A stretch of DNA of 64,000 bases from Hoylesella pleuritidis JCM 14110. Its GTDB lineage: Bacteria; Bacteroidota; Bacteroidia; Bacteroidales; Bacteroidaceae. Positions 50,842 to 62,088 of the stretch are shown in pieces (within the stretch, counting starts at the first letter, position 1; every line of letters begins with the position of its first letter). Below the pieces are notes generated by a model. The model searched no databases and was not told the DNA's origin. It worked only from the letters and a program-made list of their open reading frames with translations. The translations under genes were made by a program, and so were the position numbers. The stretch spans positions 1 to 64,000 of the forward strand of contig NZ_BAJN01000009.1 of the NCBI RefSeq assembly GCF_000613725.1. The letters are read 5' to 3'.

Positions 50842-52562
50842 AATTCACAAATTTTCGTGTCGTCAAGAACGACTGATTGGCCGTCGTTATCACCACTCAG
50901 GAAGATGCATAAGCTTGTTTCGTCTTGCTCGTCATATAGACCTACAAGTGCATTACGGCTTTCTCCCATTTCGATTTGCAGTTGGGCATCGAGCAACGCA
51001 CTGTGCAACGACTCCCGTCCGTGTGAAAACGTGTTGTTATAACCGTGCGAATGCGTGTAGATTGCAATGAGGCTACCGATCGTATTGTGTGTAGACTGCA
51101 TAAAATGAGTGGGTTTCAGCAATTCTTCTCCGCGTTCCTTGATCTCTTTCAAGAAGCAAACTGTGTCGTGAACACAACCCATCGCCGTGCCCGTAACAAT
51201 GGCATCTGGACTTGATATACCCACTCTCTGCAAGGTGACAAGTGCTGTCAGTAAGGCGCGTTTCAATAAACTGCTCAATCGACGGGCCACCATCGGCGGA
51301 ATCTTAGGCATTGTTTCGGGAGCAATATCTTGATACTTCACCACCGTTTTCACGTAAACAGGGCGGCGCTCGACCATTTGAGGTATCGCTTTCGCGTGCT
51401 CATAATCGGAGAGAATGAGTGAAGTATCGTTGCCACCGAACCCGAACGAGTTGCAGAGAACGTGCTGTAAGCGTCGGTTGCGGATGGTTTTCGTCACGGG
51501 TATAATGCCGTCCGGCATCGGCGTTTGCCAATGGAGTGTAGGCGGAATGAACTTGTTCTGAATGGCCAAAAGGCAGATTACTGATTCGATAGCCCCCGAA
51601 GCACTCGTGGTGTGCCCCGTCATCGACTTGGTAGACGATATGGGTGGCATTGCGTTTGCAAATATCCGTTGCAACGCCCGACACTCGCTGGCATCGTTGT
51701 TAGGCGTTCCCGTGCCGTGAACATTGATGTAATCGATGTCCGATGGGGTCAAACTGGCCCTTTCGAGCGCCTTTGTCATAGCCCGAAAGGCTCCCTCGCC
51801 TTCATCCGATGAGGCCGTTTGATGGAATGCGTCGCACGCATTGCCCCAACCTGAGAGTACTGCCAAGGGCTTCACACCGCGTCGGTGAGCGCTCGCTTCG
51901 GTCTCCATCACGAGGAAAGCAGCGCCTTCGCCCAAGTTGAGACCGGCCCGATCGGCATCGAACGGACGACAAGGCGCCTTGTCGAGAATCATCAACGTGC
52001 GGAAGCCATTGAAGTGGAAGCGCGACAAACATTCGCTGCCGCCGACCACAACACGTTCGAATCGGCCGCTACGCAACAAGTTGGCGCCCACCAAAATGCT
52101 GTTGGCAGCTGACGAACAAGCTGTGCTGCACGTCGTAACCAAGCCCCAATCGCCGAAATAGGAGGCCATATCTTGCGTAGTCTTTCCACAGTTTCCGATG
52201 GCCGATTCGTCCTGACCGGCAACGTAACTAAGCTCTGTCAGATCCATACTTCCGACCGTCGTGCCGGAGATCAAAGCCGTAGTTGCTAAATGATTAACCG
52301 TTAATGACGCTGCATTTAACGCTTCTTTGAGTGCCAATATACCGTTAATCGTCGTGCGACTAACAGTTAGTTGCGATGCGTTTAACCGTTGTTTGATTTC
52401 CGCATTGCTCATTTGCACTTCGCCGACAGGATATTCGCGGTGCTCGGTAGCTAAAAATCGCACGCCACGAATGCCTTCCCGACCTTCGAGTAGGGCCTGG
52501 CAAACCTCTGTCTGATTGTTGCCGATGGCTGAAACGATGCCGGCGCCGGTGATAACGATCAT
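50820..52562 (-). CDS. Beta-ketoacyl-ACP synthase with fused C-terminal Ketoacyl-synt_2-like domain (A)
   Basis: A 580-residue protein. Residues about 1-390 are a ketosynthase with the active-site Cys in TCSTACSSAANS, the His in VHGTGTPNND and the second His in TKSMTGHTTSASG, so the triad is intact. Residues about 400-575 look like a separate ketosynthase-N-type accessory domain (VTGTAMGCVHDTVCFLKE). It likely extends the polyene with the carrier proteins. Codons 54-90 coincide with a five-unit 22-bp array and contain two copies of a LNAxxLTV peptide spaced 22 residues apart. It overlaps the ACP gene by 4 bases. Confidence 0.87.
   Translation of the reverse strand: MIVITGAGIVSAIGNNQTEVCQALLEGREGIRGVRFLATEHREYPVGEVQMSNAEIKQRLNASQLTVSRTTINGILALKEALNAASLTVNHLATTALISGTTVGSMDLTELSYVAGQDESAIGNCGKTTQDMASYFGDWGLVTTCSTACSSAANSILVGANLLRSGRFERVVVGGSECLSRFHFNGFRTLMILDKAPCRPFDADRAGLNLGEGAAFLVMETEASAHRRGVKPLAVLSGWGNACDAFHQTASSDEGEGAFRAMTKALERASLTPSDIDYINVHGTGTPNNDASECRALQRIFANAMPPISSTKSMTGHTTSASGAIESVICLLAIQNKFIPPTLHWQTPMPDGIIPVTKTIRNRRLQHVLCNSFGFGGNDTSLILSDYEHAKAIPQMVERRPVYVKTVVKYQDIAPETMPKIPPMVARRLSSLLKRALLTALVTLQRVGISSPDAIVTGTAMGCVHDTVCFLKEIKERGEELLKPTHFMQSTHNTIGSLIAIYTHSHGYNNTFSHGRESLHSALLDAQLQIEMGESRNALVGLYDEQDETSLCIFLSGDNDGQSVVLDDTKICELCGDYCH
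52294..52403. repeat. 22-bp phased array 8, within the ketosynthase coding sequence
   Basis: Five exact 22-bp steps start at 52294, 52316, 52338, 52360 and 52382. Cores are TTAACCGTTAA, TTAACGCTTCT, TATACCGTTAA, CTAACAGTTAG and TTAACCGTTGT; spacers include TGACGCTGCAT and TCGTCGTGCGA. The 110-base span equals the intergenic five-unit copies. The gene reads through it with an open frame. Confidence 0.8.
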
Positions 52563-59686: not shown

Positions 59687-60408
59687 TACATTCCTCCGTT
59701 AATGCCGATAACTTGTCCTGTGATATAAGCCGCCTCTTCTCCGGCGAGGAAAGCGACCAAAGCTGCCACTTCTTCGGGTTTACCGAAACGGCCGACAGGC
59801 ACGAGTCGTTTAAGTTCCGACTCGTTCAGGTCTTTCGTCATATCGCTTTCTACAAAGCCGGGAGCTACTGCGTTGACTGTGATTTTACGCGGAGCAACCT
59901 CTTGCGCCAATGCTTTCGTTGCGCCGATAAGCGCTGATTTCGAGGCCGAATAGTTCACCTGGCCAGGTAATCCTTTCAATCCCGAGAGCGACGAGATGTT
60001 GACGATGCGCCCGTCACGCTTTGTCATCATCCGCTTTAATAGTCGGCGCGTGGTGTAGAAGAATCCGTTGAGCGTTGTGTCGAGCACTTTTTGCCACTCG
60101 TCATTCTGCATAAAAATCATTAAGTTATCGCGACGGATGCCTGCATTGTTCACCAATACGCCGATGAAATCATCAGGATGGGCATCTTCCCACGCATTAA
60201 TGGCCTGCTCGATTTCCTCCGGTTGCGACACGTCGAAGCGTAAAAGCTCGGCTTGTCCGCCCACTTTCTCTATCTCGGCCTTCGTTTCCGTGGCTGCCGT
60301 TTCATTCTGAACATAGTTGATTACAACGGGAATGCCAGCCTGTGACAATCGAATGGCGACGGCCCGACCGATTCCTCGGCTTCCGCCTGTTACCAAAGCA
60401 TATTTCAT
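59683..60408 (-). CDS. FabG-type 3-oxoacyl-ACP reductase
   Basis: A 241-residue short-chain dehydrogenase. The cofactor motif is VTGGSRGIGRAVA, the NNAG motif is in VLVNNAGIRRDNL, the catalytic Ser is in NISSLSG and the Tyr-Lys pair in NYSASKSALIGA. It is the only ketoreductase in the cluster and probably serves every polyene extension cycle. It overlaps both neighbours by 4 bases. Position in the cluster rather than sequence separates it from the housekeeping FabG. Confidence 0.9.
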   Translation of the reverse strand: MKYALVTGGSRGIGRAVAIRLSQAGIPVVINYVQNETAATETKAEIEKVGGQAELLRFDVSQPEEIEQAINAWEDAHPDDFIGVLVNNAGIRRDNLMIFMQNDEWQKVLDTTLNGFFYTTRRLLKRMMTKRDGRIVNISSLSGLKGLPGQVNYSASKSALIGATKALAQEVAPRKITVNAVAPGFVESDMTKDLNESELKRLVPVGRFGKPEEVAALVAFLAGEEAAYITGQVIGINGGMY

Positions 60409-61918
60409 TTTTTCAAGTATTCTATTACGTTTGCTATTTCTTCGTAGAACGGTGTGTCCTCAACAAACTTGGGACAAATATCTCTTACCTTATTATATAT
60501 AGCTCTTGTAGCGGGTGCTAAATCGTCGGTAATGGCCAGACAATCCGTCGCCTGTGCCAACGCAATCATCTGAATGGCCATCACTTGATAAGCATTTTCG
60601 ATCACTTCTTTGCATAATAGCGCGGTGTTCGTGCCCATACTTACGATGTCCTGATTGTCGTTGTTGTTGGGAATAGAGTGTACATAGTTGGGCATTGCCA
60701 GTGTCTGACACTCTGCCGTGGTAGAAGTGGCCGTGAATTGGCAGGCCTGCATTCCGTAGTTCAGTCCTAACTTACCGAGGTTTAAGAACGGAGGCAGGAT
60801 GCCGTTAATGCGGTCGTGGAAGAGATAATTTAGTTGCCGCTCGGTCGTCATAGCAAGTCTTACCACGCAATCTTCACTTTATCCTCTTCCAACGATATGT
60901 AATCGCCGTGGAAATTGCCGCCGTGATAAACGTTGTTCGTATCGGGATCGATGACGGGATTATCACAGGCAGAGTTCAACTCTTCGTCGATGACCTGATG
61001 GGCAGCAGTCAACGTGTCGTAAACAGGGCCAAGAATCTGCGGCGTACACCGTAAAGAGTAGTACGCCTGTACCTTATCGCGGAACACTTTCTCCGTATGT
61101 CGGCCCTGCGCATACAGTTCGTGTTCGCGCTTTACGAGTCGTTTACTGCCCTGTGCAACGGCTCTCATCCGTTCGGCCATTGCTTGCTGACCGGTGTGCC
61201 GGCGACAAACGTTGAGCCGTTCGCTCATCCAGTCGTCGTAAGAAGCCGCTATTTCGTTCATCCAAACGGCTGAAATCACGCACCAATCCAATAGCTTTTC
61301 GGCATAGATTTGATTGACAATACTGATTCCGGTCATCACGCTTGTGCCGTTGACAGCCGACAAACCTTCACGGATATAAATCTGAATAGGCTTGATATCA
61401 TTCTCTTTCAGCACCTCTGCCGTAGGTCTCCACGTACCCCGGTAATGCACTTTCCCCTCTCCGATCAACGTCAGTGCGATGTGGGCCAATTGTACAAGAT
61501 CGCCGCTCGCACCTACACTTCCGTGGCGGGGAATGAATGGATAAATGCCCGCATTAATCATTTTGACCAGCGTTTCCACCACACTCGGGTGAATTCCGGA
61601 ATGTGCTTGGACGAAAGTTCCTACTCGGGCGATCATCGATGCCTTGACATATACATCCTCAAGCGGCTCTCCTGCGCCCGTGGCGTGACTGCGAATGATG
61701 TTGTATTGCAGATCTTTCAGGTCTTGATTGTCCACTCGCCATTGTGCCATTGGCCCAAATCCGGTATTGATTCCGTAGATAATCCGATCCTCGGCAAATG
61801 TTTTCAGAAAATCGTAACAGTGCCGGATATCTTGATAAATACCGTCATCAAGTACCACCTTTTCATCATAGAAAAGGTTTCTTTGAACCGAATTGACGGA
61901 AAACACACGTTCTTTCAT
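60405..61918 (-). pseudogene. Tyrosine ammonia-lyase (HAL/PAL family), one-base frameshift
   Basis: First gene of the aryl polyene operon; it removes ammonia from tyrosine to give 4-coumarate, the probable starter. The MIO cofactor arises from Ala-Ser-Gly in GSVGASGDLVQL. It closely follows the Flavobacterium johnsoniae tyrosine ammonia-lyase as I remember it: YGINTGFGPMAQ, LQYNIIRSHATGAG, and YVHSIPNNNDNQDIVSMGTN. The frame breaks near 60865: the first ends at DKVKIAW and the second resumes at VVRLAMTTERQLNYLF. Adding one G gives 504 residues, matching the family. I use ATG 61918, which follows the promoter at 62008-62000. Tyrosine preference is by similarity. Confidence 0.88.
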
Positions 61919-61999
61919 ATTCTTCTGACTATTCTCTCGGCAGCTCTCTATCTTTCTTCTCCCTCCATATGACGTGATAGAGCTTTGTTCTAATTGATT

Positions 62000-62008
62000 G
62001 CAAAGGTA
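62000..62008 (-). promoter_or_regulatory. Promoter -7 box of the aryl polyene operon
   Basis: TACCTTTGC is read on the minus strand from 62008 to 62000, about 80 bases before the ATG at 61918. An AT-rich stretch lies at the -33 position. It precedes the whole overlapping gene series, so it is the main operon promoter. Confidence 0.6.
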
Positions 62009-62088
62009 GAGATTAATTTTTAAAATACCAATATCTTTCAGTACTTTTATCGGTGTTATACCGAAAAAGGAAAACGGCAAATCGTAAT

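Follow-up and report, generated by a model that had tools for sequence, protein, structure and literature searches.

Tandem 22-bp palindromic arrays in the Hoylesella pleuritidis genome, including one within a ketosynthase gene

We describe arrays of 22-bp palindromic units in Hoylesella pleuritidis, one of which lies inside a ketosynthase (KS) gene. The window analysed covers the first 64,000 bases (1-64000) of contig C41; the draft genome to which it belongs totals 2.56 Mb in 49 contigs, of which a 1.23-Mb sample was scanned for arrays. The nearest functional parallel is offered by the sites of Noc (NBS) and SlmA (SBS), dispersed palindromic protein-binding sites that are under-represented at Ter (PMC4726725). 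Noc has about 70 and SlmA 24-52 such sites per chromosome, each a single palindrome, whereas the arrays described here consist of four to five tandem units and number 129 in half a genome. The closest published relative is PINSR of the Prevotella intermedia/nigrescens group, a repeat of 188 bp that lies between genes in 177-184 copies per genome, is regarded as non-coding and has no terminal inverted repeats (Naito et al., 2015; PMC4755523). Compared by description, both elements have many, mostly intergenic copies and are similar in length (about 198 bp for an array with both flanks), and PINSR may represent the same type of element in P. intermedia. Neither the sections on PINSR (3.4 and 3.5) nor a term search of the main text points to 22-bp units, copies within genes or regular spacing, however, and the arrays are not confined to intergenic DNA, with 13 of 129 in open reading frames (ORFs).

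DNA uptake sequences (USS/DUS) resemble the arrays in lying partly in ORFs and in having species dialects, and their even spacing has been both claimed and disputed; unlike the arrays, they are short, non-palindromic motifs without a multi-unit structure. BrickBuilt, a miniature inverted-repeat transposable element (MITE) minisatellite of Porphyromonas gingivalis (PMC4596501), is likewise found in Bacteroidales and built of tandem 23-nt units, but its ends are terminal inverted repeats and its consensus differs, while our arrays show neither insertion nor a sign of tandem duplication. BldC illustrates how a protein can bind repeats cooperatively, one molecule beside the next, although its own repeats lack symmetry and are occupied head to tail (PMC5859096) and array units are dyad-symmetric. 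Among the matches listed, the open-licence literature on Prevotella/Porphyromonas repeats (P. enoeca included), synteny, nucleoid arrays and PINSR contained no description of these arrays, and the core unit string brought up only unrelated matter; Naito et al. was the sole Prevotella paper among the PINSR matches listed. In the nucleoid-occlusion literature, the only Bacteroidetes mention among the matches listed concerned P. gingivalis Fur. To our knowledge, no nucleoid-occlusion or macrodomain system is known in Bacteroidales.

Origin of the arrays inside genes

Arrays were identified with a palindromic model of 22 columns, built from eight other arrays of the window and refined on the first 850 kb (79 arrays at the last round, with other in-ORF copies included and the KS copy always excluded). 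Symmetry was imposed on the model by construction, once the units had been seen to be symmetric. Arrays were called at a score of at least 20, and genes by an ORF script. In the KS gene we found five consecutive in-phase 22-bp palindromic units with the consensus NTGCRATTAACSGTTAATYGCA, which is dyad-symmetric about S, scoring 16.1, 7.1, 17.5, 19.7 and 15.4 bits (sum = 75.7). A first-pass annotation had reported a five-unit, 110-base array in this frame at 52294-52403; this is the same array, 52288-52397 in our register, shifted by 6 bases. The annotation was also right that the gene reads through the array and that the peptides LNASQLTVS and LNAASLTVN, which begin at residues 60 and 82, lie 22 residues apart. 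The protein has both ketosynthase domains (ketoacyl-synt N, PF00109, 1.3e-25; C, PF02801, 3.2e-35), followed by Ketoacyl-synt_2, a second partial KS domain. Its Cys-His-His motifs TACSSA (147), HGTGTP (282) and GHTTSASG (316), which we take to be those of the active site, are intact and lie outside the array, as had been noted. The proposed likeness to the intergenic copies holds for the 22-bp units and fails at the flanks, as no TTGATWATCAA-type palindrome was seen by eye at the printed edges of the KS copy, unlike at many intergenic copies. Nor is the unit number fixed at five; among the first 88 arrays, 26 had exactly five above-threshold in-register units and 31 had four.

Two origins had been put forward for the KS copy, an inserted array kept as protein and a convergence of codon choice on binding sites. 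We aligned the gene with its orthologues, starting from 18 loci (L017-L034), four of which were removed by the ORF filter (L019, L020, L021, L027); the partial L035 and weaker KS matches were left out. The 14 orthologues are 46-58% identical to this KS. PVGE and TVG[GS]MD, which flank the array, are 50 residues apart here and 48-60 in the orthologues, and the residues SRT, G, A and EA, frequent in the family, are mostly kept within the array segment. The flanking-motif distance is thus within the orthologue range, and insertion is refuted for the KS gene. Added target length, the mark of a MITE or other inserted element, was found neither in KS nor in PanB. The KS array arose in place by base substitution with its coding length unchanged, and both codons and amino acids were altered. 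Pooled identity to the orthologues is 0.37 in the array, as compared to 0.50 upstream and 0.56 downstream of it. The 22-bp pattern is absent from the first 600 nt of all 14 orthologues (array scores -45 to -67; best -45.2). The annotation had named two observations that would speak against it, namely orthologues with the same amino acids but no such DNA pattern and an LNAxxLTV repeat throughout the family; among the 14 we found neither, the repeat being present in none.

Codon usage in the KS array points the same way. All 23 informative third positions fit the motif, against 20 of 24 first and 19 of 23 second positions, and the array outscores all 3,000 synonymous recodings of its peptide. 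Its codon-adaptation value is 0.73 against 0.82, below 96% of the same-length windows of the KS gene, with rare CTA and repeated TTA codons. Convergence of codons on the sites is therefore supported by the recodings, and the low identity within the array adds amino-acid changes to it. That chance or a peptide repeat of the family lies behind the KS array has next to no probability, given the absence of LNAxxLTV from the orthologues and a score of 75.7 where 20 within-gene synonymous codon shuffles of 978 ORFs reached 34.8 at most.

The KS copy is one of 13 arrays within ORFs; 116 are intergenic, with ORFs covering about 83% of the sample, and the same 1.23 Mb reversed contained no array at a score of at least 20. 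The codon shuffles produced 0-2 array-bearing ORFs per round, compared to 13 in the real sequence, although two of the real copies (34.2 and 26.8) score below the shuffle maximum. Each of the 13 beats all 3,000 synonymous recodings of its own peptide. Besides KS, the array-bearing ORFs are panB, a MurU-like nucleotidyltransferase (first 194 aa searched), recN, a Ca-translocating ATPase, a thioredoxin-like protein with DUF4369, an M23 peptidase, a GDSL-like protein (below the Pfam cut-off), an RsmF-like methyltransferase, a DUF349 protein, a DUF5683 protein, a HAD protein and an ORF of 984 aa. The arrays occupy all three reading frames (6, 5 and 2 of 13), which argues that no single peptide is under selection. 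In PanB the array corresponds to residues 230-259, where the protein aligns without gaps to 3vav and 3ez4, and residues 11-268 match positions 1-258 of the Pfam model with net length unchanged.

The arrays in KS, the Ca-ATPase and the thioredoxin-like gene are the three in-gene copies covered by the collinear blocks compared with Hoylesella enoeca (see below), and all three have homologous in-gene arrays there (scores 72.5, 28.2 and 35.2). We also observed two disrupted frames. In recN (L061, C49:98094-98675 and 97018-98028) the frame breaks just downstream of the array, with the rest of RecN in another frame, and at the KS locus of H. enoeca JCM 12259 (L104, L106; C115:75661-77399), which is 98.7% identical, KS is split over two frames with a one-base alignment gap.

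Arrays across the genome and in relatives

Half-sites of the unit showed no compensating covariation, and several symmetric positions matched less than expected (566 units; z down to -3.4); this speaks against hairpins or cruciforms and favours a symmetric dimer that reads the two halves independently. Units are hardly more alike within an array (identity 0.567; adjacent units 0.580) than between arrays (0.558). They are therefore not products of recent tandem duplication, and we rejected a minisatellite origin. In being palindromic and dispersed on the chromosome, the arrays resemble Noc/SlmA-type sites. Many carry an additional palindrome around TTGATWATCAA; 49 of its 113 matches (at most one mismatch) fell within 90 bp of an array where 2.1 were expected, and by eye these flanking palindromes share the 22-bp phase (examples in Table 1). 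Intergenic arrays prefer convergent gaps (35/116 vs 18.9% of the room; p = 0.004) and do not favour divergent ones (27/116 vs 29.4%). Where two units meet, the final base of the first is strongly coupled to the second base of the unit that follows (A then G 107, C then T 96; z = -8.0 for complementarity), a pattern that would suit contacts between neighbouring dimers.

We quantified array spacing in the dense part of the sample, which comprises C41 and the parts of C44, C48 and C46 up to 142, 262 and 65 kb, respectively. The 85 gaps there have a mean of 6.0 kb, a median of 5.6 kb and a coefficient of variation (CV) of 0.44, compared to a mean CV of 0.87 and a minimum of 0.61 in 5,000 null draws that placed one array per random intergenic gap, with gaps weighted by length. 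Only 4 gaps were shorter than 2.5 kb and 3 longer than 12 kb, where the null minima were 9 and 4. On C41, C44 and C48, all seven in-ORF copies with two neighbours lay within 5% of the midpoint between them, as did 13 of 65 intergenic copies. One further copy, C46:19140, is in the dense stretch of C46 and brings the dense-part count to 7/8. Taking all in-ORF copies with two neighbours, 7/11 were at the midpoint (p = 2e-5 vs uniform position; p = 0.0019 vs the intergenic rate of 21/106). The KS array is a case in point, as it sits in the middle of a gene run of about 19 kb, 9.2 kb and 9.8 kb from its neighbour arrays.

Array density differed between contigs (per 100 kb: C48 16.4, C41 13.0, C44 12.8, C46 8.9, C47 8.0, C49 6.0), with weaker copies on C49 and C47 and a change from dense to sparse within C46. 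The dnaA gene is on array-dense C44, and array-sparse C49 shows a plus-to-minus switch in GC skew near 240 kb, the usual sign of a terminus. Depletion around a putative terminus on C49 would give such a pattern. In H. enoeca, too, some contigs are dense, with 26 arrays in 127 kb and 22 in 140 kb, and another is sparse, with 8 in 120 kb.

For gene order, we used 387 kb of Hoylesella (Prevotella) enoeca JCM 12259 (G236), of the same genus and with the same arrays. The two genomes share 35 collinear blocks with a median length of 4.5 kb. An array was found no more than 400 bp from 45/67 block ends on the H. enoeca side and from 37/70 on the H. pleuritidis side, where the same holds for 32% of random intergenic points. 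With 184 of 1043 genes mapped, and counting gaps where both neighbours map, adjacency was broken at 11/15 array-bearing gaps and at 3/42 array-free gaps measuring 110 bp or more (Fisher p = 2e-6); among gaps of 250 bp or more the counts were 9/12 and 1/10 (p = 0.004). None of the three covered in-gene copies is a breakpoint, and the KS-bearing block is collinear across its array. We inspected by eye 15 edges of 96-99%-identity blocks, picked because one or both genomes had an array there. At one edge the match stopped inside the array and at another it abutted the array; at the remaining edges the array started 17-159 bases farther out, and at 7/15 edges only one genome had the array. Arrays are therefore not proven crossover points. 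Separately, identity to H. enoeca on C41, C44, C46, C48 and C49 is a mosaic that ranges from about 76 to 99% from one block to the next, as would result from an exchange of segments between the two species. There was no clear support for array conservation above the flanks between the two species (37/418 vs 199/3193 differences; 4 aligned arrays, 20 stretches tried), because a single locus of 81% identity contributes most of the differences; once it is set aside, the counts are 3/308 and 54/2399.

In a first draw of relatives, this unit sequence occurred in none of 35 same-genus genomes and one of 24 others. Across the genus it was found in 8 of 398 genomes, including its own, and besides that one only H. 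enoeca (56 pairs) and RUG136 (11 pairs) had many. Arrays of other units were surveyed by a sequence-blind test of 22-bp periodicity (lag similarity above 0.54-0.55), in genomes and contigs that were not random, being known from other matches or, for RUG136 and Hallella, picked around pattern matches. Within the genus it detected 7 arrays in 140 kb of G016, 6 in 60 kb of G010, 5 each in 60 kb of G003 and G026, and 2 in 40 kb of G032. Regions chosen around matches gave 3 arrays in 20 kb of Hallella seregens and 5 in 100 kb of RUG136. Several matches in G010, however, are AT-rich low-complexity DNA, G024 had one array in 140 kb, and 60 kb of G019 showed no excess at lag 22 (matches at lags 21, 28 and others), all of which speaks against a uniform picture. 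Three genomes of other families had no 22-bp arrays in 19-40 kb each. In G026 (L165-L167) and G003 (L159-L161), successive 22-bp arrays differ in their units, which are often palindromic; units of H. pleuritidis share a consensus.

Possible roles of the arrays

Taken together, these data suggest a system of DNA landmarks, set at regular intervals, whose strength suffices to reshape proteins. We give about even chances to the proposal that the arrays, the KS copy included, are genome-wide stations for a putative chromosome-organising DNA-binding protein. Each unit would bind one dimer of this protein; 22 bp is about two helical turns, so that neighbouring dimers would lie on one face of the helix, where they may bind cooperatively. 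The protein could organise the chromosome or couple it to division, in the way that Noc, SlmA and ParB use dispersed palindromic sites. With hardly any intergenic room in the packed gene run of about 19 kb, selection, or drive, would have built the mid-run station inside the KS reading frame.

Several observations weigh against such stations. Mismatches to the motif in KS were not concentrated at family-conserved residues (2/16 vs 6/45), contrary to expectation. The limits of the dense part were set after inspecting the data; sparse contigs were no more even than the null (CV 0.80 vs 0.83 on C49; 0.85 vs 0.83 on C47), the evenness of C48 weakened with strong arrays only (score of at least 60; CV 0.61, P = 0.015), and in-ORF copies off C41, C44 and C48 were near the midpoint in 0/4 cases. 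The draft is in 49 contigs, with ori and ter placed by dnaA and GC skew alone. Finally, a pure architecture role does not predict gene-order breaks at arrays.

A recombination role would best explain those breaks. Segments could be cut, rejoined or exchanged between strains at the arrays, which would then be recombination junctions or amplified repeats of the PINSR type, an element whose 177-184 intergenic copies have some inversions and translocations between them (PMC4755523). We nevertheless regard this as unlikely. Set against the excess of broken adjacency at array gaps (11/15 vs 3/42) are block edges at which the match ended inside or against an array only once each and often (7/15) had an array in one genome only, the three in-gene copies that are not breakpoints, the origin of the KS and PanB copies without insertion, and the 32% of random intergenic points that are as close to an array as 37/70 block ends. 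Somewhat less probable still, in our view, is a DNA-uptake or self-recognition sequence, with uptake bias (molecular drive) spreading arrays through genes and spacers and evening their spacing. Such drive would also account for the in-gene copies and the even dense-part spacing, and unit sequences that vary between genomes and the mosaic identity between the two species (about 75-99%) would fit it as well. On the other hand, a palindromic format of about 110 bp far exceeds uptake motifs of some 9-12 bases, and only 13 of 129 copies lie in ORFs even though these cover about 83% of the sample. Known uptake sequences also lie partly in ORFs, and an earlier study cited in PMC1939737 called them evenly spaced, while PMC1939737 itself holds them to be non-palindromic and too unevenly spaced for compaction; sequence dialects are the subject of PMC3630211.

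In-phase dyad-symmetric units also resemble regulator sites, and BldC binds direct repeats cooperatively (PMC5859096). Operators of a global transcription regulator would, however, hardly prefer convergent gaps (35/116) over divergent ones (27/116) or sit in the middle of genes, and even spacing is not expected of them; we consider this role improbable. Very improbable is an RNA-level element such as tandem hairpins, terminators or attenuators. Palindromic units that are frequent between convergent genes might suggest one, but symmetric positions pair no more than expected and several pair less (z down to -3.4), no Rfam family was found in the window at the gathering threshold, and the KS mRNA would hold five hairpins within its ORF. 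The RNA-hairpin idea was rejected for this lack of half-site covariation.

If the arrays are stations for a chromosome-organising protein, array DNA could be used to fish out that protein directly. The in-gene copies in panB, the Ca-ATPase, KS and others amount to natural experiments, with protein sequence and codon preference bent by a constraint that acts on the DNA, and the link to gene-order breaks may help explain gene-order change in this group. A broader proposal, which we find doubtful though possible, is that chromosomes of the genus carry a lattice of arrays of about five units at 22-bp pitch, one every few kilobases, with a lineage-specific, fast-changing unit code, that selection on this lattice is strong enough to write it into the frames of conserved enzymes where spacers are lacking, and that the segments between arrays are the units of reshuffling between species.

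Features of the window

The KS gene belongs to a run of co-directional genes (Table 1), whose widest internal gap is next to the adjoining acyl-carrier gene. Among the 12 ORFs of the run that were searched, we found an FAD oxidoreductase, glycosyl- and acyltransferases, an acyl carrier protein, ketosynthases, a thioesterase, a methyltransferase, a ketoreductase and an aromatic ammonia-lyase, which we take to be an aryl-polyene/flexirubin-type cluster.

Table 1. Positions of arrays and associated features in the 64,000-base window
Feature	Start	End	Strand	Score	Remarks
Array	4769	4878		91.2	
Array	9911	10020		93.7	
Array	19621	19730		103.0	
Array	27212	27321		100.3	
Array	31386	31495		89.6	four strong units
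Palindrome-like, 44 bp	37134	37177			left of 37178 array; same 22-bp phase; by eye
Array	37178	37287		103.4	five strong units
Palindrome, 44 bp	37288	37331			ATTTGTAT...ATACAAAT; right of 37178 array; by eye
Array	43064	43173		78.7	left neighbour of KS copy
Co-directional gene run	43606	61918	minus		widest internal gap 118 bp (ORF-script calls)
KS gene	50820	52562	minus		580 aa, open through array; array = residues 56-92
KS array	52288	52397		75.7	units start at 52288, 52310, 52332, 52354, 52376 (palindrome register)
Array	62072	62181		82.4	right neighbour of KS copy

The aromatic ammonia-lyase (window 60405-62080) is split between an ORF of 406 aa and one of 153 aa in a different frame, reflecting a frameshift or a sequencing error.

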